From: Cerasicoccus arenae
GTDB lineage: Bacteria; Verrucomicrobiota; Verrucomicrobiia; Opitutales; Cerasicoccaceae
Reading direction: 5' to 3'
NCBI RefSeq assembly: GCF_014651635.1
Contig: NZ_BMXG01000007.1
Span: forward strand, 124,001 to 188,000
Length of the DNA stretch: 64,000 nucleotides
Made by a program: the position numbers and the translations under genes. Below the pieces are notes generated by a model. It did not search any database and was not told the DNA's origin. It was given only the letters and a program-made list of their open reading frames with translations. Shown here piece after piece: positions 37,235 to 55,135 of the stretch. The first letter of the stretch is position 1. Every line of letters begins with the position of its first letter.

Positions 37235-37906
37235 ATGGAACAACTACAGCAGATTTACACCGAGGCACTCCGCTGGTATAATTTGCCCTTTACTGCACTA
37301 TTAGCCCTCGTACTCTTGTATTGGGTATTCAGCATAATTGCTGGCCTGTTCGGTGCCGTAATCGATTTCGACATGGATGCTGATTTAGATACCGATGTGG
37401 ACACGGAAGGTGGCACGGTCCTCGGCAAATTCTCTCGAGTCCTGAGTGATGGCGAGGCACCTTTCACCGTGGCACTTTCATTCTTCGCTTTTTTAATGTG
37501 GGGAATGATGATGACGCTGAACCATTTTTTTAACCCAGCTAGCGTATGGGCAATTGGCATGGCTATCATGGCTGCCTCGCTCGCAGTCGCGCTTTTTATC
37601 ACGCGAGCTATCATGCGTTTTCTGTCACGATTAATCCGAAAAATTTTCGGTATCACACCTCAAAATGAAAGCTTCATAGACGCAATTGGGGTAGTAATCA
37701 CCAGTGAAGTCACTGAGACCTTCGGCCAAATCGAAGTTTATCATGACGGTGTCCCCTGCCGCTTTAGCGTAGATCTGTTCCCCGGTTCCGAGCCTCTTAT
37801 TAAGGGTGATTATGCCAAAATCGTACGCAAAGGCCGTAAAGGAAAGACCTATTTGGTTGTAAAAACAGTTGAAGAGCCATCTTTGCCCAAAGGAAATTCA
37901 AAGTGA
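37235..37906 (+). CDS. OB-fold/NfeD-like membrane protein (YqiJ-like)
   Basis: 223 residues: three to four membrane helices (about 17-41, 78-97, 105-130) and a C-terminal OB-like domain (about 140-215; GQIEVYHDGVPCRFSVDL, LIKGDYAKIVRKGRKGKTYLVV). An acidic loop (DFDMDADLDTDVDTEGG) separates the first helices. NfeD/YqiJ-type proteins are partners of flotillins in many bacteria. First gene of a four-gene cluster; its stop codon TGA overlaps the GTG start of the next gene. Confidence 0.82.
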   Translation: MEQLQQIYTEALRWYNLPFTALLALVLLYWVFSIIAGLFGAVIDFDMDADLDTDVDTEGGTVLGKFSRVLSDGEAPFTVALSFFAFLMWGMMMTLNHFFNPASVWAIGMAIMAASLAVALFITRAIMRFLSRLIRKIFGITPQNESFIDAIGVVITSEVTETFGQIEVYHDGVPCRFSVDLFPGSEPLIKGDYAKIVRKGRKGKTYLVVKTVEEPSLPKGNSK

Positions 37907-38475
37907 CTGCTTTCGTGTCCATAGCGATCGCTTTGCTCATCGGAGGCTTGCTGCTTGCATGCGTGCGAACCCCTGCCCCAGGCCAAGCCTTAGTGCGCAC
38001 TGGCTTGGGCAGCACCCGCGCTACCACTGGCTCTGTGCTCGTTTTACCAGGAGTCCATCAATCTGAGAGTTTGGATCTCACCCTCACCCGAATTCCTCTG
38101 TCATTTCGTGGGCCGAATAATCCACTCATCTCCGCTGACCAACAATTATTCGATCTCGAAATCAGCTTATTTTTCCGAGTGTCAGCCGAAGAGTCCGCAA
38201 TTCTCCAAGCAATTAACCATTTCAGCGCGCAAACGCTTAATGATGAGCCCGCCCTAGTCGCTGCAATCAGCGATGACGTCGCTCAATCGATTCGCACCAT
38301 TGCGGGCAATTGCTCATGGTCACAAATCCAATCTCAACCCGATGATTTCAAATCCAGTCTCAGTGAACGATTAACCATACTTACTCCTGGACTGGCCGTG
38401 GATAGCATTGCCCTCGATCACATCGATAAATTCCCGCCAGACATCAGCTCACGTCAGAGCACCCGCTTGCTCTAA
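37903..38475 (+). CDS. Short membrane-tethered SPFH-domain protein
   Basis: 190 residues, GTG start overlapping the previous stop. One N-terminal hydrophobic helix (about 4-20), ending LLLAC, which could be a membrane anchor or a lipobox. The rest is an SPFH-like domain with no coiled-coil tail. It aligns by eye with the N-terminus of the next gene: GQALVRTGLGSTR versus GRAMVRTGMGGIK, and the FDLEISLFFRVS strand versus ITVDFFVRIN. It is thus a truncated flotillin paralogue, arisen by duplication. Probably a membrane partner of the large flotillin. Confidence 0.72.
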   Translation: MTAFVSIAIALLIGGLLLACVRTPAPGQALVRTGLGSTRATTGSVLVLPGVHQSESLDLTLTRIPLSFRGPNNPLISADQQLFDLEISLFFRVSAEESAILQAINHFSAQTLNDEPALVAAISDDVAQSIRTIAGNCSWSQIQSQPDDFKSSLSERLTILTPGLAVDSIALDHIDKFPPDISSRQSTRLL

Positions 38476-38529
38476 AATAGATTTAAAACTAAACATTAAA
38501 ACAAGCCATAACTAACAACCAACACTGTC

Positions 38530-40584
38530 ATGTTCATTCCAGTCTATAAAAACACCCCTCAAGGTCGCGCCATGGTTCGCACGGGCATGGGAGGCATCAA
38601 AGTCTCCTTCTCCGGGATCCTTTATTTCACCGTTCTCCACCGCCTTGAGGTCATGGACATCTCGATCAAACGCGTCCGCGTTGATCGCCGTGGCAAGGAA
38701 GGCCTTATTTGCCGAGATAACATTCGGGCCGATATCACCGTCGACTTCTTTGTCCGGATCAATGACACGATCGAAGACGTTCGCCAAGTCGCCACCACGA
38801 TTGGTTGCGAACGCGCCAGCGACCTCGATAAGATTCGTGAACTCTTTGACGCCAAGTTCTCCGAAGCGCTCAAGACTGTCGGCAAGCAGTTCGACTTTGA
38901 AGAGCTCTACATCGAGCGCGAAAAATTCCGCGATGAAATAAAGAAGGTCATCGGTGTAGATCTCAATGGTTACGTGCTCGATGACGCCGCCATCGATTAT
39001 CTCGAGCAAACGGCGCTAACCGAGCTCAACCCAGATAACATTCTCGACGCTGAAGGTATCAAGAAGATCACCGATCGCACCTCCCGCGAAAAGATCCTCG
39101 CCAATCAAATCGACCAAGATCGTATCAAAACGATCACCAAACAGAACGTCGAGGCCCGTGAGGCCGTCCTGGAACTGGAAAAACAACTCGCCGAAGCCGA
39201 GCAAAAGCAGAAGCGCGAAGTTGCCGTCATCACCTCTCGCGAAGAAGCAGAAGCGGCCCGCGTCCATGAGGAACAGCGTCTGCGCGCCGAAACGGCCCGT
39301 ATTGCAACCGAGGAAGAACTAGCTATAGCCGAGGAGAATAAGCTCCGCCAAATCATCGTGGCGGAAAAATCTAAACAACGCACGGAAGCCATTGAAACCG
39401 AGCGTGTAGAGCGTGATCGTCAATTGGAAGTCGTTGAGCGCGATAAGGTTACTTCCCTCGCCGACATCGAAAAAGACAAGGCCATTGAAAAAGAAAAACG
39501 CGAAATACAAGAAGTCATCAAAGAGCGCGTGATGGTCGAAAAAACCGTCGTTGTAGAGCAGGAAAAAATCAAAGATACTGAGGCCTTTGCGGGTGCCGAT
39601 CGTGCGAAAAAAGTCGCAATTACCCAAGCAGAACAACGCGCCGAAGAGCAACTCGTCGAAAAGGTTAAAACTGCCCAAGCCAGCAAGGAAGCCGAACAAC
39701 TCAAGGCAGATGAACTGTATTACCATGAAGTTCGTAAGGCAGAATCCTCCAAGAAATCCATTGAGCTGAAGGCCGAGGAAACCGTAATTTCTGCCGAAGC
39801 GCATGAAACTGCAGCCGGTCGCGAAGCTGCAGCCAAAAAGACCCTCGCCGAGGGTGTTACCGCTGAATCTGCCGCAGAAGGTCTTGGCCATGCGAAAGTC
39901 TTGGAAGCGAAAGCAAGCGCGTTTCAAAAACAAGGCGAAGCCGAGGCCTCCGTTGCCGAACTTAAATTTCTGGCTGAAGCCAAGGGCATCAGCGAGAAGG
40001 GTGCAGCCAACGCTAGTGCCGATGAAAAGAAGTTCTTGGCCGAAGCCGAAGGTATCCACAAGAAGGCCGATGCTATGAAAGTCTTCAACGAAGCCGGAAA
40101 AGAACACGAAGAATTCAAGCTACGTCTGCAAAAAGACAAAGAAATCGAACTCGCAGAAATCGCCATCAACGAGAAGATCGCCGAGTATCAGGCACACGTC
40201 CTCGGCGAAGCACTCAAGAACACCAAGGTCGACATCGTCGGTGGCAGCACAGACTTCTATGACCGTGTCGTAGGTGCCGTTACTCGCGGTAAATCCATCG
40301 ATCGCTTGATCGATAACTCCCATGCCCTGACCGACGTCAAGGACACCTTTTTCAATGGTGACCCTGAATACTTCAAGACCAAGCTGAAGGCATGGACCGA
40401 GCAGTTCAACATATCGACAGAAGACATCAAAAATCTCTCTGTCGCTGCCCTTCTCTCCCGCATTGCTGATAAGGCCGATGGCAACGATAAGAAGGAAGCC
40501 AACGACCTGCTGTCACTCGCTGAAAAATACGGTATTAGCAGTAAGAAGGCTGGCGAATTCTTCGACACGCTGATCAGAAACTGA
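38530..40584 (+). CDS. Flotillin (YqiK-like), no membrane segment of its own
   Basis: 684 residues. Residues 1-170 are an SPFH domain beginning FIPVYKNTPQGRAMVRTG; about 175-560 are long, charged heptad-rich coiled coil with many EAE/KAEA repeats, as in flotillins; the last 110 residues are helical and globular. No hydrophobic helix precedes the SPFH domain, and in-frame stops just upstream exclude a longer start. Flotillins oligomerise in membrane microdomains. Here anchoring may come from the short SPFH and OB/NfeD-like proteins encoded upstream. Followed by a hairpin and the AAA+ gene. Confidence 0.9.
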   Translation: MFIPVYKNTPQGRAMVRTGMGGIKVSFSGILYFTVLHRLEVMDISIKRVRVDRRGKEGLICRDNIRADITVDFFVRINDTIEDVRQVATTIGCERASDLDKIRELFDAKFSEALKTVGKQFDFEELYIEREKFRDEIKKVIGVDLNGYVLDDAAIDYLEQTALTELNPDNILDAEGIKKITDRTSREKILANQIDQDRIKTITKQNVEAREAVLELEKQLAEAEQKQKREVAVITSREEAEAARVHEEQRLRAETARIATEEELAIAEENKLRQIIVAEKSKQRTEAIETERVERDRQLEVVERDKVTSLADIEKDKAIEKEKREIQEVIKERVMVEKTVVVEQEKIKDTEAFAGADRAKKVAITQAEQRAEEQLVEKVKTAQASKEAEQLKADELYYHEVRKAESSKKSIELKAEETVISAEAHETAAGREAAAKKTLAEGVTAESAAEGLGHAKVLEAKASAFQKQGEAEASVAELKFLAEAKGISEKGAANASADEKKFLAEAEGIHKKADAMKVFNEAGKEHEEFKLRLQKDKEIELAEIAINEKIAEYQAHVLGEALKNTKVDIVGGSTDFYDRVVGAVTRGKSIDRLIDNSHALTDVKDTFFNGDPEYFKTKLKAWTEQFNISTEDIKNLSVAALLSRIADKADGNDKKEANDLLSLAEKYGISSKKAGEFFDTLIRN

Positions 40585-40602
40585 TCACTAGAATCTAGCA
40601 GG

Positions 40603-40633
40603 CCTTAGTCGCTTAAAGATACAGCGACTAGGG
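40603..40633 (+). promoter_or_regulatory. Intercistronic hairpin between flotillin and AAA+ genes
   Basis: CCTTAGTCGCT (40603-40613) and AGCGACTAGGG (40623-40633) form an 11-bp stem with one G-T pair and a 9-nt loop. No T tract follows, so it is not a standard terminator. It may act as an mRNA stabiliser or processing site setting different levels of the two proteins. Confidence 0.6.
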
Positions 40634-40664
40634 GCTATGGATAAAGACTAGGAACATCATAGCT

Positions 40665-43600
40665 ATGGCTGATACAGCAACCGACACCCCCGCACCTGCC
40701 TCGGCACCCAAGCTCGAAGGTGGTGCCTATGAGGTCATCAGACAGCGTCTGGACACCCAGTCCGCCGAGCTACTCAAGCGGCTACAGACTCTCAACATCA
40801 ATCGGCAATCCGTTTTCGGCGCGATCGAAAACAAGCTCATCGCCACTGACCGCATAACCACCGAGCATAACTGTACGCCTCGGGATATGGTTTCGCTGCC
40901 GGGTGGTCGTTTCTTGTTCGGTTACAACGTCAAACTCGGCCTAAAATCGCAGATGCAGATCGGCGACGTCTTTGCGGCTTATCGCTTAGATGGCGAGGAT
41001 CAAAGCTTCCACACAGAAGCTCTCGATATAATTAGCAATCAGGAGTTCCAAGAGGACTTCGCCTACCTTTATAAGTATTACAAGGCAACGAGCTTCGTGA
41101 AATTCCTCCTACGTGGTCACGAGTTCTACATGGCGTTTCGCATCAGCGATGACATTCGAGACATCAAGGTATTCAAGTGGCTCATCACTGATGACGGGCT
41201 AAACTATCTGGGGAATCGCTTCGACCCAGAATACACCTTCCCTCCGCAACATTCGTTTACCTGGACACGCGCCCATCGTGAAATGCAGCGCAGCGGTCAG
41301 CATCCGCACATCTCCATCGAAGATAAGCTCTTTGTAGAAACAGTCGGCGGCGACCTCACGATCAAAATTGAAGACAACACCACCTCTGGCGAAGGAATTT
41401 ATTCCGAGCCCGTTGATCACGTTGATCAAACACTGGATGATGCTGATATTTTCTATGCCGTTGTCGGAGAACTAATACTGTTACGAATCCTTCCCTATCA
41501 GGAAAAAAAGACGCGCTATTTCATCTACAACAGCAAGGTGAAAGAGGTACGCCGCAGTGATGCAATTGGCTCAAGTTGTGTCGCTCTCCCCGAAGAACAA
41601 GGCGTGATCTTCGCGAACGGCTATTACTTGCATAGTGGTGAGTGTAAACTGTTCGACAGCTCACACAGTAACATGTGGTTCGAGCGACTCGTGAAATCGC
41701 CCAATGGCGAGGACTTCCTGTTTTCTTTCTACGAACGGGTAACGGGCGAATACGTGCTGATGAGCTACAATCTCATCCAGCAAACTGTCGGCACGCCAAT
41801 CATCTGCCACGGCTTCACGATTTTTGACAACGGCGAGATGGTTTACTTCCGCGGTGGTGACGAGGCGCAGAAACACCACTCACTGCAAATCTGGCAGACA
41901 CCTTTCACCAACGATGACCTCCCCCCCACCGGCAAGGCAGATAGCTACCTGTTTAAAGTCGGTAACAAGGAAGTCGTCCGCAGTATGAGCGAATGCTATG
42001 AGGTTTACAATCTCCTACAAAAGGACGAAAGCTACACTGGACTCTATGTTGACCTTGTAAAGCTTAGCAGCGACATCCTCGATACGTATTTCTGGCTCAA
42101 CAGCGATGAGGCCGCGAATATCAAGGAAACGCTATATACAATCAATCGCACCGCACAAAGCGCGATCGATGAGTTCGATAAGGTCCAGCGCATCCGTAAA
42201 TCCACCAACGAGCAAACTGAAGCCGTTCAGGTGCGCGTGCGCAAAGTCACCACCGAAGTCAGTAGCACAAAGCCGGACGATATCATTGGCTTCGTCCGTA
42301 GTTTGGCAGACTTGCGCACATTGCGCGGTGAGATAATCGGCCTGCGTGACCTGCGCTACGCTAACATTCCTCTCAGCGAGGAGCTGGAGAACAAAGTCCG
42401 AGCCCTCTCGGATCAGGTCGCACAGCAGGCAGTAGAATTCCTCCTGCTCGATGAAGCGCTCGACCCGTATCGGAATGCTGTTGAAGAGCAAGCTACTGCG
42501 ATCGAGCAAATTGAAAAGGTCACTCAGGCCAATGAAATCAGCGAAAAGCTTGACGCAGCTGGTGCTGAGTTAGAGCTGCTCATTGAAATTGTTGGTAACC
42601 TCAAGATTGAAGATGCAACGCAAACCACGCGCATCATCGACTCGATTTCCAACATTTACTCCCGCCTGAACCAGGTCCGTAACGATTTAAAGGCGCGGCG
42701 CAAAGAGCTCATGCTGGTCGAAGGTGCCGCTCAGTTCAATGCCCAGCTCAAGCTACTCAACCAAGCGGTTGCTAATTATCTGGACCTCTGCGAAACGCCT
42801 AAGCAGTGCGATGATTACCTGACCAAGCTCATGGTACAGCTCGAGGAACTTGAAGGCCGCTATGCAGACTTCGACGAATATCTCGACCAGCTGACGACAA
42901 AGCGTGACGAACTCTATAATGCTTTTGAAACAAAGAAAATGTCGCTTCAGGAGTCGCGTAACCGACAGACGACTCGTCTGCTCACCAGCGCAAAGCGTAT
43001 CCTGACTGGCATTGAAAATCGTGCTAAGGGCCTCAAGGAAATCACAGACATCAACGGCTATTTCGCAAGCGACCTCATGGTCGAAAAAGTCCGCGACATC
43101 GCTGATGAACTGGGAAAAATCGGCGAAAACCTCAAGGGCGACGACATCCTTGGCCAGCTCAAAACCGTTCAAAGTGATGCCATTCGACAACTCAAAGATA
43201 AGCAAGAACTCTTTGTCGACGGCGAGGACATTATCCGCTTTGGCCAGCACAGTTTCAGTGTTAATACGCAAGAGCTAGCGCTGACCACCGTCCAGCGAGA
43301 AGGCGGTATTTACTTCCACCTCTCAGGCACACAGTTTTTCGATCCGATTAAAGATGAGGTGCTGCTCGACACACGATCCGTGTGGGAAATGGAGGCCATC
43401 AGTGAAAGTCGTGTGGTCTACAGAGGTGAATATCTAGCCTATCAATTACTCAGGCATTTCGACGCCAAAAATAAGGCGGAAAATTCCGATCTCAACATTT
43501 CATCAAGTGACTACCAAGCGTTGGATGACAAAGCACGGCTAGAGTTTGTCCAACGTTTCATGGCCCCTCGCTATCAGGAGGGCTACATGAAGGGGGTGCA

Positions 43601-46091
43601 TGACGAGGACGCGTTTCGCATACTCGACGCCCTACTGGCCATCCACAGCACTGTCGGCCTTCTGCGTTACTCACCTGATGCCCGCGCCTGTGGCCTCGTA
43701 TACTGGCAGCACTTTATCGGCCGCACTCCCGATAACGATTTACTATCGGCTAAGGTCGACGCTTTTGGCGAAATGCTTCGCCTCTTTCCCCAGCACCGCA
43801 CTCAACAGGGTTATGTCAACGAATTGCACAAGCGCATCACTACATTTTGCGAAGACTCAGGTCTTTGTGACGCGAAACTGGCTGAAGATGCCGCCGAGTA
43901 TCTCTTTCATGAGTTAATCGACGCCGAGTCCTTTACCGTTTCACTTGAGGCCGCCTCATTGGCGGAAAGCTTCCACCACGAACTCGTATCCAAACGCTTC
44001 ACCGACAAGCTTGAAAAGGCACGCGCCGCCATGCGCGGTAATGCCCCGGGTGAATTCCAAGTCCTCCGAGACTGGATACGCGGCTACGCATTGGCGCAGA
44101 ACATGCCCGAGAATCAATTTGAGTATCTCGACGAAGCTGCCGCGCACCTACTACGTGGTCCAATTGAAAAGCGCCACGTTGTTGATGTCCCGATCGAAAC
44201 AGAGATCACTGGCCTACGTGGAGATCACGACGTCGTCCAAGGCAAGGTCATCTACCTACATTACAATAAGTTCCTCGCCAAGATGCGGGAGCATGAGCGC
44301 GAAGTCGTACCGCTCTACCGCCGTTTCCAAGAGCGTAAGGCCGAGCTCGTCGATGTCATGCGCGAAGACTTACGCCTTAACGAGCTTAAGCCTCGAGTGA
44401 TGAGCGCCTTTGTCCGCAACCAACTTCTGGACAAAGTATATCTGCCGATGATCGGCGACAATCTTGCCAAACAAATCGGCACGGCAGGTGGCGACGCCCG
44501 TACCGACCGCATGGGCATGCTACTGCTCATCTCCCCCCCCGGCTACGGCAAGACCACGCTCATGGAGTATATCGCAAACCGGTTGGGCATTACTTTCGTC
44601 AAGGTCAACGGACCTGCGATCGGACATCACGTCACCAGTCTCGACCCCGAAGATGCGCCCAACAAGGCTGCGGCGGAGGAAGTCGAAAAACTCAATCTCG
44701 CCTTCGAAATGGGCGACAACGTGATGATTTATCTGGATGACATTCAGCACTGTAATCCAGAGCTGCTGCAAAAGTTCATTTCTCTTTGCGATGCCCAGCG
44801 TAAAATCGAAGGCGTTTACAAAGGCAAAGCGCGGACTTACGATTTAAAGGGCCGTAAAGTGGCTGTCGTTATGGCGGGCAATCCGTACACCGAAACGGGT
44901 GGCAAATTTCAGATCCCGGACATGCTCGCCAACCGCGCCGACACCTACAACCTCGGCGACATCATTGGCGGGCATCATACCGCTTTTGAAGATAGCTATC
45001 TGGAGAATTCGCTGACCTCTAACACCGCGCTTCGTCCGTTATCCAATCGAAGCCGTACTGACGTCTATGCAGTCATTAAAATTGCGAAGACGGGCATTCG
45101 AGAAGGCGTCGAATTTGAGGGTAGCTATTCGGGCGAAGAAGTCGAAGAAATGGTAGGCGTCATGAAAAAGATGATGCGCGTCCGCGACACAATTCTCCGG
45201 GTCAATCTGGCTTATATTAAGAGCGCAGCGCAAGCTGACGATTTCCGCACAGAACCTCCGTTCAAGCTCCAAGGCTCTTACCGTAACATGAACCGAATTG
45301 CGGAAAAGCTACTGCCAATAATGAGCGACAGCGAAGTCGAATCGCTGATCGATGACCACTACGAAAATGAAGCCCAAACCCTCACCCAGGGTGCTGAAGC
45401 GAATTTGCTCAAGTTCCGTCAACTTGAGGGCAAAATCACTCCCCCCGAACTCGAACGCTGGGAGGAGATTAAAAAACGCTTTACGAAGAACAAGATACTT
45501 GGTGGTGCAAACAGCGACCCAGTCAACAAAGTCGTCAGCCAGTTGGCAGACAACAACACGGCACTCAGCGAAGGTTTATCTGCACTGGGCGAGCGCCTCG
45601 CAGCAATGCGTCAGCCCGTTACCTTCGACGGAAGCACCTTGGATAAGATTCGTGCCCTATTCCCGAACCCTCCAGAACCCAAGCCGCTTCAACTCGACGA
45701 ATCAACTTTAGCCAAACTCAGTGAACTCTTGCCCAAACGCTCGGAACAGCCACCTACCCTAGCCTTGTCTGACGAGGCAGCCACACTGCTCAACAAACTC
45801 GTCAACAGTCTCGAAAAATCCGCTAAACCCAAATCAACACCAAAACCGCAAGCTGACTCGGCGACTATCTATGCAGAAGCCATCGAAAAGTTGGGAGAGA
45901 AATTGGCAGCCCGCCCCAGCGTTGTCCTACCAAAGCTTTCATTAGACGAAAGAACGGATAGCACCCTTGATCAAATCCTTGAGGCCTTCCATGTGCTCTT
46001 CCGCCACACCGGTATCGAACCGCAGGCCCAACGAGATACTCCGCCGAAAAAAACGCGCCCGAAGAAACCTCTGGCCGATGATTCGCTTTGA
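40665..46091 (+). CDS. Giant coiled-coil AAA+ ATPase ('DNA repair ATPase', DUF3686-type)
   Basis: 1808 residues, cytosolic. The N-terminal about 500 residues match, from memory, DUF3686, annotated only as 'ATPase involved in DNA repair'. Residues about 500-900 are mostly helical coiled coil. One AAA+ module follows: Walker A PPGYGKTT (K1296), Walker B MIYLDDIQH (D1358, D1359), a sensor-like MAGNPY (near 1403), and a probable lid region. The last 250 residues have short repeats of the type FDGSTLDKIRALFP / LDESTLAKLSELLP. The P-loop is encoded through eight C (44533-44540). Position as last gene of the flotillin cluster suggests a membrane-docked remodelling ATPase. No DNA-binding motif is visible, so a repair role is unproven. 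Confidence 0.88.
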   Translation: MADTATDTPAPASAPKLEGGAYEVIRQRLDTQSAELLKRLQTLNINRQSVFGAIENKLIATDRITTEHNCTPRDMVSLPGGRFLFGYNVKLGLKSQMQIGDVFAAYRLDGEDQSFHTEALDIISNQEFQEDFAYLYKYYKATSFVKFLLRGHEFYMAFRISDDIRDIKVFKWLITDDGLNYLGNRFDPEYTFPPQHSFTWTRAHREMQRSGQHPHISIEDKLFVETVGGDLTIKIEDNTTSGEGIYSEPVDHVDQTLDDADIFYAVVGELILLRILPYQEKKTRYFIYNSKVKEVRRSDAIGSSCVALPEEQGVIFANGYYLHSGECKLFDSSHSNMWFERLVKSPNGEDFLFSFYERVTGEYVLMSYNLIQQTVGTPIICHGFTIFDNGEMVYFRGGDEAQKHHSLQIWQTPFTNDDLPPTGKADSYLFKVGNKEVVRSMSECYEVYNLLQKDESYTGLYVDLVKLSSDILDTYFWLNSDEAANIKETLYTINRTAQSAIDEFDKVQRIRKSTNEQTEAVQVRVRKVTTEVSSTKPDDIIGFVRSLADLRTLRGEIIGLRDLRYANIPLSEELENKVRALSDQVAQQAVEFLLLDEALDPYRNAVEEQATAIEQIEKVTQANEISEKLDAAGAELELLIEIVGNLKIEDATQTTRIIDSISNIYSRLNQVRNDLKARRKELMLVEGAAQFNAQLKLLNQAVANYLDLCETPKQCDDYLTKLMVQLEELEGRYADFDEYLDQLTTKRDELYNAFETKKMSLQESRNRQTTRLLTSAKRILTGIENRAKGLKEITDINGYFASDLMVEKVRDIADELGKIGENLKGDDILGQLKTVQSDAIRQLKDKQELFVDGEDIIRFGQHSFSVNTQELALTTVQREGGIYFHLSGTQFFDPIKDEVLLDTRSVWEMEAISESRVVYRGEYLAYQLLRHFDAKNKAENSDLNISSSDYQALDDKARLEFVQRFMAPRYQEGYMKGVHDEDAFRILDALLAIHSTVGLLRYSPDARACGLVYWQHFIGRTPDNDLLSAKVDAFGEMLRLFPQHRTQQGYVNELHKRITTFCEDSGLCDAKLAEDAAEYLFHELIDAESFTVSLEAASLAESFHHELVSKRFTDKLEKARAAMRGNAPGEFQVLRDWIRGYALAQNMPENQFEYLDEAAAHLLRGPIEKRHVVDVPIETEITGLRGDHDVVQGKVIYLHYNKFLAKMREHEREVVPLYRRFQERKAELVDVMREDLRLNELKPRVMSAFVRNQLLDKVYLPMIGDNLAKQIGTAGGDARTDRMGMLLLISPPGYGKTTLMEYIANRLGITFVKVNGPAIGHHVTSLDPEDAPNKAAAEEVEKLNLAFEMGDNVMIYLDDIQHCNPELLQKFISLCDAQRKIEGVYKGKARTYDLKGRKVAVVMAGNPYTETGGKFQIPDMLANRADTYNLGDIIGGHHTAFEDSYLENSLTSNTALRPLSNRSRTDVYAVIKIAKTGIREGVEFEGSYSGEEVEEMVGVMKKMMRVRDTILRVNLAYIKSAAQADDFRTEPPFKLQGSYRNMNRIAEKLLPIMSDSEVESLIDDHYENEAQTLTQGAEANLLKFRQLEGKITPPELERWEEIKKRFTKNKILGGANSDPVNKVVSQLADNNTALSEGLSALGERLAAMRQPVTFDGSTLDKIRALFPNPPEPKPLQLDESTLAKLSELLPKRSEQPPTLALSDEAATLLNKLVNSLEKSAKPKSTPKPQADSATIYAEAIEKLGEKLAARPSVVLPKLSLDERTDSTLDQILEAFHVLFRHTGIEPQAQRDTPPKKTRPKKPLADDSL

Positions 46092-48146: not shown

Positions 48147-48221
48147 TGCCCGGTAGCTCAGCGGTAGAGCAGGTGGCTGTTAACCACTTTGTCGCTGGTT
48201 CGATCCCAGCCCGGGCAGCCA
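48147..48221 (+). tRNA. tRNA-Asn (anticodon GTT)
   Basis: A complete 75-nt cloverleaf with encoded CCA. Acceptor TGCCCGG pairs with CCGGGCA; D stem GCTC/GAGC; anticodon stem GGTGG/CCACT with loop CTGTTAA (anticodon GTT); T stem GCTGG/CCAGC with TTCGATC loop. Discriminator G, then CCA. Its 3' half overlaps, on the opposite strand, the end of an integrase remnant, as expected of an integration site. Confidence 0.97.
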
Positions 48222-48627
48222 TTTTGGACCATGTGTCCAAGTGTGCCAGATAGCGCCTGAGCAAGCCTATCTATCTTGTTTTCAAGAGCTTGGAGTTTCG
48301 AAATCTCGTCCTTGCTTGTGCCAGACTGTGACTGCTCAGGACCCGTAAAGACAGGCTCGGGAGTGCATACGGGAGTGCAATTTTTCTGAGCAAATAGTTT
48401 GGTTACGTTGGCTCCCTCAGAAAGTTTGGCCACGTTCATATAATGCTTTGATGTAGTCGAAGCGTTTGAGTGCCGCAGAATTGATTGAATGAATGGCAAT
48501 TCCATTCCTTTCGTGGCAAGCCAATGGCCGAACGTGCGCCGGAGCGCATGAAAGTCCAAGTCGCCGAATTCATTACTGTATTGTAAGCCTGCCCGCTCGA
48601 GGTCCGCTTTTAGAACCTGGTAGGGTG
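48158..48627 (-). pseudogene. Tyrosine recombinase (phage-type integrase) remnant, C-terminal part
   Basis: The frame holds the catalytic C-terminus only: FHALRRTFGHWLATKG (His-x-x-Arg), LRHSNASTTSKHYMNV (His and nucleophile Tyr), then a linker. It opens at about 48627 with SPYQVLKADLERAGL and lacks the N-terminal core-binding domain and first catalytic Arg. The closing residues GCPGWDRTSDKVVNSHLLYR come from reading tRNA-Asn antisense; the stop lies inside the tRNA at 48158-48160. It abuts the stop of the Rep remnant, so both were cut by one deletion. Likely non-functional. Confidence 0.82.
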
Positions 48628-48631
48628 AACC

Positions 48632-49113
48632 CTAAGACGCGCTGGCTAGGTTCTTCGATACATACTTGAACAGGTATTCAAACTGCTTTTGCTTGATGCC
48701 CGCGACATGGACCCGACCCAGCCCCCACCAGATTGTAAACATCTCTAGGAAGTCAGGCGGGATCTTCTTGCGGTAATCGATGATCAAATGCCAATGCGGA
48801 TATCCGTCTTCATGAAACTCCAGCTTCCACGCCCAGGCGAACGGCCCGATTGCTTTCCTCACACGCGCTAAGAAACGTCGCATCCGCTTCCTGCCCTTCT
48901 CAAAGGCCACCTTCTCCGAAACGAAGCCGTGCCCGTCCGTGGTCAGCGTGAGAAACTTGCATCGCTTAAGGACCGGAAGGCCCTGCGCTCGATCTCACGC
49001 CGTTTCAAATAGACGCCCCGTTTAGTAAACCAGTTCGCGCCATGAAAGGCTGTCGCTTTCTCCAAATCCAGCTCTTTCCTCAAAAATGCGATCACCGTTT
49101 TCTTCCATCATTA
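48632..49113 (-). pseudogene. Rolling-circle replication initiator (HUH-type Rep) remnant, frameshifted
   Basis: The main frame (48632-48910 and a little upstream, from a stop near 49000) contains EFHEDGYPHWHLIIDYR, with the H-x-H metal motif, and a YLFKYVSK stretch with candidate catalytic Tyr, as in G2P/microvirus-like Rep proteins. Further upstream the homologous-looking sequence continues in another frame (WFTKRGVYLKRREIERRA, about 48990-49113), so there is a frameshift near 48985. The C-terminus is truncated at a TAG where the integrase remnant begins. With that remnant it marks a decayed single-stranded-DNA-phage or plasmid-like element. Confidence 0.72.
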
Positions 49114-49276
49114 CAATTTAAACAAAATCAGAAATTAGACCTCAACTCGCCGTGGTTATGATTGACATGGGGATGATTTGTTCAGGCAAAATGTAACGTT
49201 ATTTTTCTTGGTATGGTTGTTGAAAGTCTCCATCCTAGGGGCAATGACTGGTTACTTAAGAGGGGGAAATGGCCCA

Positions 49277-52200
49277 ATGGATTGGGCTCGGGATGTTTTG
49301 AACGTGGCCATTGTGCGCTGCGTGAGCGTGTTGACCATGATTGTAATCGTGGCAGGTGCTAGCGGAAGGCTCCACGCCGACTGGGAGGACAGCTATAGCA
49401 CGTCGGGCACGATCAGTGTCACCGATGATAACGGCACGCTAAAGGCGACGAGCACATTAGAAAACTCCCCGACGCTGCCAGCGACGCTTCAACTGAAGAG
49501 CGGCGATAGCCTGATATTTCAACCGATTGAAGCAACTGTTAGCGGGACCGGGTCTTACACCACCGATGACACGTCACTGGTCGATGGTGTCAGCAAATTT
49601 TACAACGGCAATCAACCGCTCCAGATCACCAGTTCGGCCGATTTGTCGTGGACAACCTCCAGGCTTTTCACTGAGCATCAGGGGACACCTTATGTGGGCA
49701 ATGGCGTTTTATTTGCCCAGTTGAACCTGATTGAAGGCGGCGTCATTCCGCAAGGTATCAACATCGGAATCGACCTTACGCACTCGGGCAATATTACTTT
49801 GGATTCTACGGTGAGCCACGTCCTGTCTCCCAATATACCAACCTTTGCAGATGTGAGTGGCATCCTGGCGGTGTCGGGAAATCAACCGGGTGTGGATTTC
49901 GCGGGGCCAGCCTATGGTGCGGTGTCGGTGACCACGCAGAGCGGATCAACGATCGATGTCACAAGCAATCCCAGTGACTCGACGAAACCGGTTTTAGCGG
50001 CTGGCGTCATGGCGGGCACCTCCTACGCCGGCTACGCTTACTCAGAACCAACCATGATCGATATCGAGCACGGGGGAGACATCTCTGTGACGTCCGATCA
50101 AGGGGTGGGCATCCTCGCGACTGGAACGGTTGCAGCCGGTGTCGTGCAGCAGGATCCCGCTTCAGTAGTAGGTACCGGGGCTGACGTGAATGTCACCTTG
50201 AAGCAGAGCGGGTCGATTACCACATCGGGTAAAACCGGGATCGGTATCATGGCGTTCAACCAAACGTTTTCCCACATCGGATCGGGTGATTTCCATTCGG
50301 GCGTGGTGAATGTCGACCTGCAGAACGGAACGGCTCCGCTGAAGACGGGGGGCACGGATTCAATTTTTTCATTTGGCGTATTAGCCGTTTCATCCGGAAG
50401 CACCCAGGGCGTTGATCCGTTTGGCTTATCAGAAACCGGTGTTTGGGAATCTCAGGCTGGCTCAGTGGGCGGCAAGGCAGAAGTTAACAGTGATCGTGCG
50501 ATCGAGACAGCGGGCGAGTTGTCCATTGGCATTGCCGCCTTCAGTGCGGGAGTCGCGGTGGTCACTGGTGTCCAGGGAGATGCCGGTGTAGCCACATACC
50601 TTGGCAACTCCGACTCGGATTTTAGTGGTGGCGGTGGAGAGATCGTCGTTACCACCACGGAGAATGGCACCATCACCACTGTTGGGGAAAATGCTACGGG
50701 TATCCATGCCAGCAGTGTCCCCGTTGGTGGCGTTGTTTACAACGACATCGACAGTTCGCTCAAATTGGACGGTAGCGGCGATTCGGGTTTGATCCTTGGT
50801 GATATCGATTCTGCCTCCTCCTCCAGCTCCGATGCCGCGCACGGCGGCAAGGTCAGGATTACTACCGGTGCGGATATCGCCACGGGTGACGGCAATGGCG
50901 CGGGTGTCGCCTCGGCCGCGGTCGTTGCTCAGAGCATTGGCGGCGGCGGCGGCAGCGCTGGGGGTAAGTCATCGTTCCTCATCGGCGGCAGCGGTGGCTC
51001 TGGTGGTGATGGCGGCGAGATCAGCATTACCCAGAACAGCGGCGGGACGATTACCACGAACGACGAGAAGTCGATTGGCATTTTAGCGCATTCCATCGGT
51101 GGTGGCGGGGGCAACGGCACCAATGCCGAGGGCCTGTTCATTTCGATTGGCGGCAAAGGCGGTGACGGCGGTGACGGCGGTACTGTAACGGCCAACATTC
51201 AGGATAATATTACAACCCATGATGACTATTCCGGGGGCACGTTGCTGCAATCCATCGGTGGCGGCGGCGGCCACGGCGGGTCAGCGACTACTTGGGGAAG
51301 AGATATTGGGATTGGCATCGGCGGTAGTGGCGGTTCTGGCGGCTCCGGCGGCGAGGTTGCAGCCAATGCGGCCTCGGGCACAAAGATTACCACAGTTGGC
51401 GAAGACTCTACGGGTATGCTGCTGCATTCGGTTGGCGGCGGTGGTGGCCACGGTGGTACGGCCACCAGCTACGAGGCCGGAACCCTATTGACACTTTCTT
51501 TGGCCTTGGGCGGTAGCGGCGGCGATGGTGGCGAAGGCGGCGTGGTACTGGCAAACAACGCTGGAACGATTTCCACCGGAGTGCCGCTGCTTCATTCAGG
51601 CGGTAACTCGGCCGGCATCGTCGCGCAGTCCGTTGGCGGTGGCGGCGGCCACGGCGGGTCAGCGTCCGCGAAATCCTATGACCTCAATCTAATCGATGAA
51701 GTCCCGAACCTGGATGCGACAATAGCCATTGGTGGCTCAGGTGACCCGGGTGGCGACGGTGGAATAACTACGATCAATAACACCGGCTCCATTACAACCC
51801 ACGGCGGGCTGTCTGCGGGGGTTATCAGCCATTCGATTGGCGGCGGCGGTGGAAGCGGCGGTAAGTCCGACGTTGTTTCACACCTGATCAACATTGCTAC
51901 AGAAAGCGCGAAGATTAATTTGGCAATCGGTGGAAGTGCCTCCGCTGCTGGCTCTGGCTCGGATGCGATTGCCAGCAATGGCGACCAGTCCGGCAGTTCC
52001 GCGAGCATCGCGACTACGGGCAATAATTCAGCCGGGATGGTGGTTCAATCCATTGGGGGCGGTGGTGGCCATGGTGGGCATGGCGATGTCGAATCGCCGG
52101 TAAGGGATTGGAGCAAAAGCGAAGAGAAAGAGGCGAAAACTTTAGACGTTTCGTTGAGCATTGGTGGCTCCGGCGGCAAGGGCGGTTCTGGTGGAACTAC

Positions 52201-55135
52201 CATTGGCGAAAACTTTGGCTCGATTTCGACGGATGGCACTGCGTCTCCGGGCATCATCGCTCAGTCAATTGGCGGCGGGGGCGGCGTTGGCCGAACAGCC
52301 AGCGCCGATGGCGGCAATACCATTAACACTGACAATTTAACCATCGGAGGTTCCGGTGGTGACGGAGGCGCAGGCGGTGAAGTGGCGGTCTCTAACAGCG
52401 GTTCCATTCAAACAAGTGGTGGCGATTCCGTGGGTATTATCGCGCAATCCGTCGGCGGTGGCGGTGGCGACGGTGGTAGGGCCGAGTCGAAGTCAAATTT
52501 GGACCTCATTGACCAAGGTCTGGCCCTCGTGCATCCAGAAAATGCTTGGAGTGCCGATGTCGCCGTAGGCGGGCACGGCGGTAGTGGCAACGGTTCCGGT
52601 CAGGTCGGTGTCGAAAACCAGAGTGGCGCGAGTATTGAGACGTCCGGTTCACGTTCCTTTGGGGTGCACGCCCAATCCATCAGCGGCGGTGGCGGTCGGG
52701 GTGGTGCGGCGTCAACCATTACTGATTCGGCCTTCAATCAAGCCTTTACGGACAAGGGCCAATACACCGCAGAACTGTCTATTGCGGGCAGTGGCAAATC
52801 CTCCTCGCCAACACCAGGTGAATTGGAAGTCAAAAATGACGGTAAAATCACGACCACTGGTTACGACGCGCACGGCATTCTGGCCCAATCTGTAAATGGT
52901 GGCGGTGGTTCTGGAGGTGTAGGATCGACAGATACGTATGTCGACATATCAATGGGCGTTGCCATTGATGGCACCTCGGGCGGCCATGGTGACGGGGGTT
53001 CAGTAATCGTCTCCAGTAGTGATTCCATTAGCACCACGGGTACACACGCTGCCGGGATTGTGGCTCAGAGTATCGGTGCAGGTGGCGGTCACGCCAGCGT
53101 TGGTAGTGATAGGCCCAACGGGAAAGTATCGGCTGTGGAGGCCTACGGTCTTCAGACACATATCATGATGGGAAATAGCAATAGTTCGACGTCAGGCGAT
53201 GGTGGGGATGTAGAGATTAATTTGAATCTGGCAGATTCGAATGTCACCTCGATGGTGTCGACGAATGGTAACTGGGCCTTTGGCGTCGTTGCGCAAAGCG
53301 TGGGCGCGGGTGGCGGTAAAGCGAGTGTCATCTCGGGGGCGCAAAGCAATGCCTATAATTCCATCACATCAGTTCAATTAGGGGCCGATGCGGGCACAGG
53401 GGCCGGCGGTTATGTACAGGCCAATTTGTTGACGAACTCTACGGTTAGCACGAAAGGCTACGGTGCTTCGGGTGTTATTTTGCAGTCAATTGGCGGCGGC
53501 GGCGGGATTGCAACGATTGCTTCGCAGGATTACGAATACACAGAAAGCAGCCTTAATGTGCCCATTCAAGTGGGTTCCGGCAGAGGCACAATCAAAGGGG
53601 GCGGCGGTAATGTAACCCTTCTGGGCGATACCACTGTCACGACAGATGGGGACTACGCACATGGTATTGTCATGCAGTCCATTGCGGGCGGCGGTGGCCT
53701 TTTTGGGGCGGGCACTGAAAACGCGCCGTCCAACACCGACCAACCTCTGTCTGTCTTAATGGGCTCTAACACGGACGCCGATAACAATGGCGGCGAGGTC
53801 GTCATGACGGCGAAGTTGAACGTTTCGACCAAGGGTGATAATGCCTTCGGCGTCGTAGCGCAATCGATCGGCGGGGGCGGTGGCATGGCCATGGGGAGTA
53901 ATCTTACTACCAACAATTCCTTTTTAGGTGACAACGGCGGGTCGGACCGCGATGGGGGTACAGTTAGTGTCTCGCTGGCGCAGGACTCCGAGATCACGAC
54001 CACCGGGCAGGCCGCGCATGCCATCGTGGCTCAATCGATTGGTGGCGGTGGCGGTATCATTCAACCCACAGCCTCAACATCCGACGCTCTCGCAAGCAAC
54101 CTGATCTACTATTCATCGGATGCTCATGGTTACGGTGGTGATGTCACCATCACCACCGAAGGCTCAATCACCACGCATGGTGTCGGGGCCATTGGGGTCG
54201 TCGGGCAAGTGATCGGCGGTGGTGGCGGAATTTCTGGCCATCTCGCTGGCTCAACCGGTGGCGATGGGTCCTCATCGAAAGCCAGCGATAATGGAAAATT
54301 GATGATCACCCAAAACGGCATGCTGACCACCAACGGTGTGAATGCGTATGGGATTTTTGCCCAGAATGTTACGGCAAATGGTTCGAATGGGAATGACATC
54401 ACCGTGGTGGTTAATGGCACCGTTAAGGTAAATGATGACAATGGTGTCGGTGTTCATTTCTCGGGCGGAAGCAGCAACAACACGCTTACGATCAACGGCT
54501 CGGTCGATGCACATACGGTTATGAACTTCTATGACTATGGCGATAGTTCCGTAACGCCGACGGTGAACAATAACGGCACGGCCAGTGGCAACATCAATTT
54601 AGTCACTGGAAATGACAGTGCCGGGACGTTTAATAATTACGGAAAGTTTTACGTTGGAGATGAAATTGGCGGCATTATCAACAATCACGGAGATCTGCTT
54701 GTAGGAACCTTGGGGAGTGAGCATGGAATCAAAACGGTTGTTCACACGGAATTTAATCAAAGCGCAGAAGGTCAGTTGATTTTCGATATCTTTGGTGCTG
54801 AAAATCACGATTTACTTATTTTCAATGACAACGTAACCGGTTCATTGATGGGATCTATTGTTGCCATGTTCGATGACGATTTTACGCCAGAAGTGGGTGA
54901 CGTATTCACACTCATGCAAGGAATTAAAGACATCGAATTGGGTGAGAAAGTTCTCAGCTCAATGCAGGTAGAGGGCCTGGCAGAGCACTTCGAGTGGTCT
55001 GCGAAACTGGGTGCTGACTATACCGTCAACCTCCTGATCAACGTTCCGGAGCCCTCAACCTACGCATTGTTTGCCTCAGTGCTGATTGGATTAGCAGCCA
55101 TGGTTTATCGGCGAAAGAGTGCTACCCGAAAATGA
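49277..55135 (+). CDS. Giant Gly-rich repeat surface protein with PEP-CTERM signal
   Basis: About 1952 residues from the ATG at 49277, chosen because it gives a signal peptide (VAIVRCVSVLTMIVIVAGA, cleavage near LHA) and a purine-rich stretch about 12 bp upstream; ATG 49178 adds 33 residues. Residues about 550-1660 hold about 18 repeats of the form G-(I/V)-(V/L/I)-A-Q-S-(I/V)-G5, spaced by 40-110 residues and linked by GGSGGSGGDGG stretches, which resemble passenger repeats of large proteobacterial autotransporters. The end is VPEPSTYALF, a hydrophobic helix and RRKSATRK, a PEP-CTERM exosortase signal. No beta-barrel follows. Likely an envelope-anchored adhesin or matrix protein. Confidence 0.85.
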   Translation: MDWARDVLNVAIVRCVSVLTMIVIVAGASGRLHADWEDSYSTSGTISVTDDNGTLKATSTLENSPTLPATLQLKSGDSLIFQPIEATVSGTGSYTTDDTSLVDGVSKFYNGNQPLQITSSADLSWTTSRLFTEHQGTPYVGNGVLFAQLNLIEGGVIPQGINIGIDLTHSGNITLDSTVSHVLSPNIPTFADVSGILAVSGNQPGVDFAGPAYGAVSVTTQSGSTIDVTSNPSDSTKPVLAAGVMAGTSYAGYAYSEPTMIDIEHGGDISVTSDQGVGILATGTVAAGVVQQDPASVVGTGADVNVTLKQSGSITTSGKTGIGIMAFNQTFSHIGSGDFHSGVVNVDLQNGTAPLKTGGTDSIFSFGVLAVSSGSTQGVDPFGLSETGVWESQAGSVGGKAEVNSDRAIETAGELSIGIAAFSAGVAVVTGVQGDAGVATYLGNSDSDFSGGGGEIVVTTTENGTITTVGENATGIHASSVPVGGVVYNDIDSSLKLDGSGDSGLILGDIDSASSSSSDAAHGGKVRITTGADIATGDGNGAGVASAAVVAQSIGGGGGSAGGKSSFLIGGSGGSGGDGGEISITQNSGGTITTNDEKSIGILAHSIGGGGGNGTNAEGLFISIGGKGGDGGDGGTVTANIQDNITTHDDYSGGTLLQSIGGGGGHGGSATTWGRDIGIGIGGSGGSGGSGGEVAANAASGTKITTVGEDSTGMLLHSVGGGGGHGGTATSYEAGTLLTLSLALGGSGGDGGEGGVVLANNAGTISTGVPLLHSGGNSAGIVAQSVGGGGGHGGSASAKSYDLNLIDEVPNLDATIAIGGSGDPGGDGGITTINNTGSITTHGGLSAGVISHSIGGGGGSGGKSDVVSHLINIATESAKINLAIGGSASAAGSGSDAIASNGDQSGSSASIATTGNNSAGMVVQSIGGGGGHGGHGDVESPVRDWSKSEEKEAKTLDVSLSIGGSGGKGGSGGTTIGENFGSISTDGTASPGIIAQSIGGGGGVGRTASADGGNTINTDNLTIGGSGGDGGAGGEVAVSNSGSIQTSGGDSVGIIAQSVGGGGGDGGRAESKSNLDLIDQGLALVHPENAWSADVAVGGHGGSGNGSGQVGVENQSGASIETSGSRSFGVHAQSISGGGGRGGAASTITDSAFNQAFTDKGQYTAELSIAGSGKSSSPTPGELEVKNDGKITTTGYDAHGILAQSVNGGGGSGGVGSTDTYVDISMGVAIDGTSGGHGDGGSVIVSSSDSISTTGTHAAGIVAQSIGAGGGHASVGSDRPNGKVSAVEAYGLQTHIMMGNSNSSTSGDGGDVEINLNLADSNVTSMVSTNGNWAFGVVAQSVGAGGGKASVISGAQSNAYNSITSVQLGADAGTGAGGYVQANLLTNSTVSTKGYGASGVILQSIGGGGGIATIASQDYEYTESSLNVPIQVGSGRGTIKGGGGNVTLLGDTTVTTDGDYAHGIVMQSIAGGGGLFGAGTENAPSNTDQPLSVLMGSNTDADNNGGEVVMTAKLNVSTKGDNAFGVVAQSIGGGGGMAMGSNLTTNNSFLGDNGGSDRDGGTVSVSLAQDSEITTTGQAAHAIVAQSIGGGGGIIQPTASTSDALASNLIYYSSDAHGYGGDVTITTEGSITTHGVGAIGVVGQVIGGGGGISGHLAGSTGGDGSSSKASDNGKLMITQNGMLTTNGVNAYGIFAQNVTANGSNGNDITVVVNGTVKVNDDNGVGVHFSGGSSNNTLTINGSVDAHTVMNFYDYGDSSVTPTVNNNGTASGNINLVTGNDSAGTFNNYGKFYVGDEIGGIINNHGDLLVGTLGSEHGIKTVVHTEFNQSAEGQLIFDIFGAENHDLLIFNDNVTGSLMGSIVAMFDDDFTPEVGDVFTLMQGIKDIELGEKVLSSMQVEGLAEHFEWSAKLGADYTVNLLINVPEPSTYALFASVLIGLAAMVYRRKSATRK
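50928..54240 (+). repeat. Coding repeat array, about 18 units
   Basis: Imperfect repeats within the PEP-CTERM gene, each with a GG(C/T)-rich core encoding QSIGGGGG-type motifs and often a preceding acidic/Ser/Thr segment. Divergence between units shows the array is old rather than recently amplified. Confidence 0.85.

Follow-up and report, generated by a model that had tools for sequence, protein, structure and literature searches.

Known systems and the gene cluster of Cerasicoccus arenae

Bacterial operons that pair a flotillin with a membrane protein of the NfeD type were described in 2009; these SPFH2-NfeD2 operons include YqiK-YqiJ and YuaG-YuaF, and cyanobacterial ones contain two SPFH genes (PMC2636767; this and all other papers cited are represented here by extracts of their text). 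Ravi et al. (2024; PMC11237479) published an operon class with CesT/Tir, PspA, YqiJ/YuaF, flotillin and AAA+ genes together with a role in membrane assembly; its AAA+ protein carries a beta-propeller and coiled coils, and forms without PspA are noted. PspA has also been reported with band-7, FloT and NfeD proteins (PMC9239133), and B. subtilis depends on an SPFH protein for recruiting PspA to the membrane (PMC8581546). Here we analyse four consecutive genes in a stretch of 64,000 nucleotides (the window) from Cerasicoccus arenae (Verrucomicrobiota; contig NZ_BMXG01000007.1, positions 124,001 to 188,000), which encode an NfeD/YqiJ-type protein, a short SPFH protein, a flotillin and a giant AAA+ ATPase of the DUF3686 family. 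On balance we lean towards the view that the cluster encodes one membrane machine, an AAA+ remodeller tethered by flotillin at the inner membrane, whose substrate would most likely be a polymer of the PspA family.

The gene set is the same as in the class of Ravi et al., i.e. YqiJ/YuaF, flotillin, and an AAA+ protein with propeller and coiled coil. The cluster fits the abbreviated form of this class, with YqiJ assigned by homologues; it does not correspond to the full form, as CesT and PspA are found neither among the four genes nor among their neighbours. What distinguishes it from the class, as far as the extracts describe it, is the SPFH part: here a flotillin without anchor is accompanied by a second, short SPFH gene. 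Because the neighbours (PspA_IM30, CesT_Tir_1) and the predicted architecture agree, the ATPase of Ravi et al. is very likely a DUF3686 protein (a name absent from the extracts), the comparison being one of context and architecture rather than of accessions. The SPFH2-NfeD2 operons resemble the cluster in the flotillin beside an NfeD-type gene and in the doubling of SPFH genes, but, unlike in the window, no AAA+ partner is described in the extracts of PMC2636767.

The first-pass annotation of this DNA had presented the cluster as an uncharacterised machine, a view that needs revision: the operon class, its AAA+ ATPase and the role in membrane assembly already appear in the extracts of Ravi et al. 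New here are the identity of the ATPase as DUF3686, its best fold matches to MoxR-type proteins with conserved catalytic motifs, and the variant found in Cerasicoccus. In the open-access literature (most subscription papers lay outside the search), no paper was found under PF12458, DUF3686, DUF7902 or PF25472, and none that joins 'DNA repair ATPase' with 'flotillin'; Ravi et al. (2024) was the sole paper met there on the operon of this ATPase.

Conservation of the gene linkage

A scan with an alignment of five ATPases gave 319 related stretches. The analysis was confined to the 80 best loci, which are biased towards Verrucomicrobiota, Planctomycetota and Bacteroidota and include many from Hymenobacter. 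For 60 of these loci, at least 5.5 kb of upstream flank is available. A flotillin lies upstream on the same strand in 59 of the 60: 58 were found by script, and L053, whose open reading frames (ORFs) overlap by ~80 bp, just beyond the script's limit, was added by hand. NfeD genes are upstream in 57 loci, PspA is nearby in 35, CesT in 30, and a regulator with helix-turn-helix (HTH) and S24 domains in 29; by Pfam, the recurrent neighbours are PspA_IM30 and CesT_Tir_1. With a flank of at least 300 bp as sole condition, a flotillin is present in 71 of 76 loci, L053 included. The misses are L057, L064, L086, L088 and L104; for L064, L086 and L088 a different contig holds the flotillin, the L088 copy lying at a contig edge that may reflect an assembly break. 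The first-pass annotation had proposed such a neighbourhood search, with the single-machine idea to be given up if the ATPase occurred mostly without flotillin and NfeD neighbours; since the linkage of all three is strongly conserved, the search does not refute the idea.

Further loci come from a plasmid collection, where 12 records encode the ATPase. Nine were read, omitting a Hymenobacter record and the second records of Proteus and of Deinococcus. They belong to Actinomycetota, Pseudomonadota and Deinococcota, their ATPases are 36-42% identical, and they contain flotillin in all nine cases and NfeD in eight. The run on pQBR103 comprises YjfI, PspA, rhomboid, DUF2491, DUF350, DUF1190, glutathionylspermidine synthase, an NfeD-type gene, SPFH and the ATPase. 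Because the order NfeD-flotillin-ATPase recurs across phyla, the cluster is more than a chance arrangement.

Co-occurrence was examined in 288 genomes of the phylum, which share kinship and are thus not independent, so that Fisher values exaggerate the association. DUF3686 occurs in 27 of them, in one copy each. A closely related flotillin (E <=1e-138) is present in 26 of these 27 genomes vs none of the 261 others, and when counted by genus the two co-occur in 16 out of 16. In 21 of the 26 genomes no more than ~1 kb separates the ATPase from the flotillin upstream; the distance is 3.6 kb in G115, and G066, G135, G175 and G324 have the flotillin on a separate contig (for G066, possibly owing to an assembly break). 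A distant flotillin, ~30% identical, is found in 5 of the 261 genomes without the ATPase.

Several other genes accompany the operon. The gap between flotillin and ATPase is a recurring slot for small nuclease genes of the PDDEXK type (15 of 74 loci, plus G220; e.g. L009 10881-11255, L011 10639-11049 and L157 7232-7606). Of the 15, 13 encode DUF559, mostly in Hymenobacter, and two PDDEXK_3/GxxExxY. As partners of the putative machine they were rejected. PDDEXK_3 has 3-8 matches per genome (7 genomes) and DUF559 3-6 (4 genomes), so that the gap nucleases are more likely insertions. Upstream of Bacteroidota operons lies the divergently transcribed HTH-S24 regulator (L068 4916-5707; the 29 of 60 loci above, cluster c4). 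Its peptidase catalytic residues look replaced when judged by what we take to be the LexA catalytic positions; it is therefore probably not cleaved like LexA, and SOS-type control by this regulator was discarded. In G324 (L148 8526-9365) and G233 (L149 8831-9670) the gene preceding the ATPase is not a flotillin but resembles a Kdo/WaaP kinase, as judged from a scan of the G324 copy.

Domains and predicted fold of the ATPase

In Pfam, gene 4 matches DUF3686 (E=5e-183), DUF7902 (E=4e-29) and AAA (E=2e-8). With 609 bits against a curated cut-off of 25, over the full model, it is a member of the DUF3686 family (PF12458). Modelled with AlphaFold2, residues 12-860 and 845-1640 (mean predicted local distance difference test scores of 87.1 and 85.1) display a beta-propeller whose matches are WD40-like (Z 10.3 at best), together with long coiled coils, a helical region and the AAA+ core, in agreement with the 1808-residue coiled-coil AAA+ ATPase of the first-pass annotation. 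Five motifs of the core hardly vary among 91 homologues (>95% conserved); we take them to be Walker A, Walker B, sensor 1, arginine finger and sensor 2. Because of this conservation, the DUF3686 protein likely hydrolyses ATP. The repeats in its C-terminal tail differ in number among Cerasicoccus genomes (window, L009, L010, L011) and possibly form a binding tail.

According to VIA-align, the AAA+ core is most similar to MoxR-type AAA+ proteins: CbbQ2 ranks best (Z 17.2, 3.7 A over 251 residues), NorQ has 16.6 and dynein 14.8. At the position of the MoxR helix-2 insert, the model contains only a loop and short elements, as read from secondary structure rather than from a residue-by-residue superposition. 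The window's protein differs from MoxR proteins in being an 1808-residue multi-domain protein, and scans of cluster representatives and of window neighbours, which covered a part of all neighbours, gave no VWA-domain partner.

A model of the proposed machine and its closest alternative

According to the model we favour, the NfeD/YqiJ-type and SPFH proteins would assemble into a scaffold along the inner membrane, on its inner face. This scaffold would recruit the DUF3686 protein, a soluble AAA+ motor with a beta-propeller head, long coiled-coil arms and a MoxR-like ring, which would spend ATP there on remodelling a membrane-bound protein assembly. The most likely substrate of the motor would be a PspA-family (ESCRT-III-like) polymer or complexes stabilised by it, with PspA in C. 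arenae presumably supplied from pspA copies away from the cluster. Complex formation, recruitment, ring formation, the substrate and the direction of remodelling are what we infer here, and likewise the docking of the ATPase on the flotillin scaffold, which the first-pass annotation had put forward. Its interpretation anticipated the conserved linkage; it missed PspA and CesT as frequent additional partners, the MoxR-like fold and the restriction of the anchorless flotillin to this genus among the flotillins compared.

PspA is found in 19 of the 27 ATPase genomes vs 21 of the 261 others at E up to 0.001; with the curated cut-off the counts are 15 of 27 vs 15 of 261. Eight more genomes were hand-picked, and seven possess it; L055 already had a copy in the operon, which leaves six of seven where the locus is without PspA. 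A structural study of 2024 (PMC11746142) suggests, with Vps4 as the model, that PspA polymers are turned over by chaperones or PspF. The DUF3686 ATPase, linked genetically to flotillin and in many loci close to PspA, is a candidate for the disassembly of bacterial ESCRT-III (PspA) polymers. The likeness to ESCRT-III/Vps4 is that many relatives encode an AAA+ motor close to genes for PspA, an ESCRT-III-like protein; the differences are that a MIT domain would be expected in Vps4, for which the window's ATPase gives no match at E up to 0.1, and that its AAA+ core is closest in fold to MoxR-type proteins. A bolder version of the model is speculative and, in our estimate, rather unlikely: the DUF3686 protein would be the missing ESCRT-III remodelling ATPase, a convergent counterpart of Vps4 with MoxR-type motor and propeller head that a flotillin cage keeps at the membrane, and in Cerasicoccus the anchorless flotillin would co-polymerise with the short SPFH protein, which would leave openings in the cage and supply the anchor.

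Several observations weigh against the favoured model. No flotillin was found in L057 and L104, nor in G233 (91% complete), the only one of the 27 ATPase genomes of which this is true. Eight of the 27 have no PspA match, and only 15 pass the curated cut-off; PspA is also present in all five genomes that combine a distant flotillin with the absence of the ATPase. In the window itself, neither pspA nor CesT occurs in the operon or its neighbourhood, and the two pspA genes of the genome sit on other contigs, one of them beside PspC and a sigma-54 activator. As regards the fold, Foldseek ranks RuvB first for the AAA+ core, and the best PDB matches of its sequence profile are p97/CDC48 and RuvB around Walker A, not MoxR. 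Since these two methods favour RuvB or p97, we use MoxR-like for a resemblance of fold, not for proven membership.

The best-surviving alternative is a chaperone or quality-control function without a link to PspA, in which the AAA+ motor would extract or mature membrane proteins within a flotillin enclosure, like FtsH with HflK/HflC. Like that system, the cluster has two SPFH proteins and an AAA+ protein. FtsH is a membrane protease, whereas the Pfam scan found no protease family in the window's ATPase. The precedent for SPFH and AAA+ proteins acting together is the interaction of HflK/C and YbbK with FtsH (PMC2636767), and MoxR-type AAA+ proteins help to mature protein complexes (PMC3893208, PMC13036017). 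PspA, which is not nearby in 25 of the 60 loci, is nonetheless enriched with the ATPase and often close to it. We regard this function as possible, at roughly one chance in four, and as a serious rival; PspA-type polymers are our best single guess for the substrate.

Gene layout and the SPFH pair of Cerasicoccus

All four ORFs of the cluster are open and on the + strand (Table 1). Genes 1 and 2 overlap by 4 bp (GTGA, 37903-37906), followed by gaps of 54 bp and then 80 bp, as first described, and the four genes are genuine. In-frame TAA stops separate genes 2 and 3, though both use one reading frame; an 'open frame 903' in the six-frame listing is at odds with these stops, which speak against a split gene or a start error. 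Scans for promoters and terminators remained at chance level (6 and 15 sites vs 6.9 and 11.8 in shuffles). In the Pfam scan, gene 1 matches YqiJ_N with E=0.028, under the cut-off, and its seven NfeD-type homologues that were scanned include one match over the cut-off (L154, E=5e-6), two under it and four without any. Because its own match is sub-threshold, the name NfeD/YqiJ is based mainly on position and homologues.

Table 1. Genes of the cluster and parts of the ATPase, with positions in the window.
Feature	Position	Strand	Basis
NfeD/YqiJ-type membrane protein (gene 1), 223 aa	37235..37906	+	ORF; sub-threshold YqiJ_N; homologue L154; family upstream of ATPase in 57/60 loci
Short SPFH/Band_7 protein (gene 2), 190 aa, one N-terminal hydrophobic stretch	37903..38475	+	Band_7 E=1.2e-7
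YqiK-type flotillin (gene 3), 684 aa, without N-terminal hydrophobic stretch	38530..40584	+	Band_7 E=5.6e-9 (six-frame search); hydropathy
DUF3686 AAA+ ATPase (gene 4), 1808 aa; homologues annotated 'DNA repair ATPase'	40665..46091	+	ORF, Pfam
DUF3686 domain, residues 35-476; predicted beta-propeller ~57-411	40767..42092	+	Pfam, model
Long helical/coiled-coil region including DUF7902, residues 486-849	42120..43211	+	Pfam, model
Helical region before AAA+ core, residues ~947-1164	43503..44156	+	model
AAA+ core, residues 1245-1590: SPPGYGKTTL, DDIQH, MAGNP, LANRAD, LQGSYR	44397..45434	+	homologue alignment, fold match
C-terminal tail with LDExTLxxLxxLLPKP-like repeats	45597..46088	+	Cerasicoccus only, among tails printed

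The two SPFH genes bear out the earlier description of a short SPFH protein with one membrane helix and a 684-residue flotillin without any: the N-terminal hydrophobic stretch of gene 2, which also matches Band_7, has a mean Kyte-Doolittle hydropathy of 2.73, and gene 3, with 1.19, has no such stretch. In the whole-protein scan, gene 3 has no Pfam match; its Band_7 match came from the six-frame search. It belongs to a flotillin cluster that spans 69 loci and has the characteristics of SPFH2 (YqiK-type) proteins, namely an SPFH domain, then a long helical region (read from the sequence), and an NfeD-type neighbour. For the hydropathy comparison of 77 rows, seven short SPFH proteins and three sequences without N-terminus were set aside. 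Of the 67 left, all 61 flotillins outside the genus possess the N-terminal stretch (19-residue mean 1.69-3.50), and it is missing in all six Cerasicoccus rows (four genomes, two seen twice; mean 0.97-1.19). The anchorless flotillin is therefore peculiar to Cerasicoccus among the flotillins compared.

The short SPFH gene is present in all four Cerasicoccus genomes examined, of which only the window's copy carries the hydrophobic stretch. In the other three (G001-G003), neither SPFH protein does, and anchoring there must therefore presumably use NfeD or surface contacts. According to our model, in this genus the flotillin would have lost its membrane stretch and a short companion gene would have been gained; anchoring would now fall to NfeD and, in C. 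arenae, also to the short SPFH protein. The Cerasicoccus variant offers a natural experiment for asking how a flotillin assembly is anchored.

With 38-39% identity between the window's copy and those of other Cerasicoccus species, the short SPFH protein evolves fast. The closest pair has a ratio of nonsynonymous to synonymous substitution rates (dN/dS) of 0.05; for the three remaining pairs in which dS is finite it is 0.2-0.3, with one of these approaching saturation. The gene thus appears, from its sequence, to be fast-evolving yet under purifying selection. One could read it as a decaying leftover, and the missing stretch of the flotillin as an artefact of annotation or sequencing, a reading in keeping with the fast evolution; the low dN/dS, the in-frame stops that part genes 2 and 3 and an arrangement common to all four genomes make it improbable.

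The phylogeny of the SPFH proteins is based on one quick FastTree run with 76 candidate proteins, midpoint-rooted, from which L009 and L011 were omitted as duplicates of L039 and L060. It groups the four Cerasicoccus short SPFH proteins (support 1.0) on long branches separate from the flotillins, which speaks against a recent duplication of the window's own flotillin as their source. In L059 (Sedimentisphaerales), a 191-residue short SPFH protein with a hydrophobic stretch adjoins an anchored flotillin and several pspA genes. It is neither grouped with nor closely related to its own flotillin, and short SPFH companions may therefore have arisen more than once or predate Cerasicoccus.

The DNA-repair label and a possible role in defence

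A further alternative takes the database label 'ATPase involved in DNA repair' literally and regards the position beside a flotillin as chance. A knock-out of a COG2268 flotillin-like gene in Shewanella does raise the mutation rate (PMC1468410), an effect that may be indirect because iron metabolism is altered and the cells are sensitive to peroxide (PMC1468410). No nuclease, helicase or DNA-binding family passes the cut-off in the ATPase, and the RuvB matches span only ~45-70 residues around Walker A. The co-occurrence with flotillin is near-perfect, the gap nuclease families have several matches per genome, and the genes that recur nearby encode flotillin, NfeD, PspA and CesT, not repair proteins. 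With support from neither domain nor context, we consider a repair enzyme very improbable, in agreement with the first-pass annotation, which had seen no sequence support for the label; a correction would follow for public plasmid records that carry 'DNA repair ATPase', for which there is no visible support. Just as improbable is an anti-phage or other conflict module, a reading suggested by ATPase copies on plasmids such as pQBR103 and rejected in view of PADLOC matches that are weak and partial (E 0.0004-0.003), the lack of any ATPase-encoding record in the one viral (phage) collection searched, and the recurrence of PspA and CesT as neighbours.

Other genes in the window and its genome

Elsewhere in the same genome (C3), a divergent PspA-family gene (L131 7099-7779) lies beside genes for a DUF2157-like membrane protein and a thioredoxin-like protein. 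A 115-residue protein encoded nearby, without Pfam match, recurs near pspA of G002 and G003. Downstream of the cluster (window 48158-48910, - strand) lie pieces of a tyrosine recombinase and of a REP_ORF2-G2P-family replication protein, likely the remnant of a mobile element. They are followed by a gene (49178-55135, + strand) for a 1985-residue glycine-rich repeat protein, which has no Pfam match and, by our own reading, a PEP-CTERM-like end.

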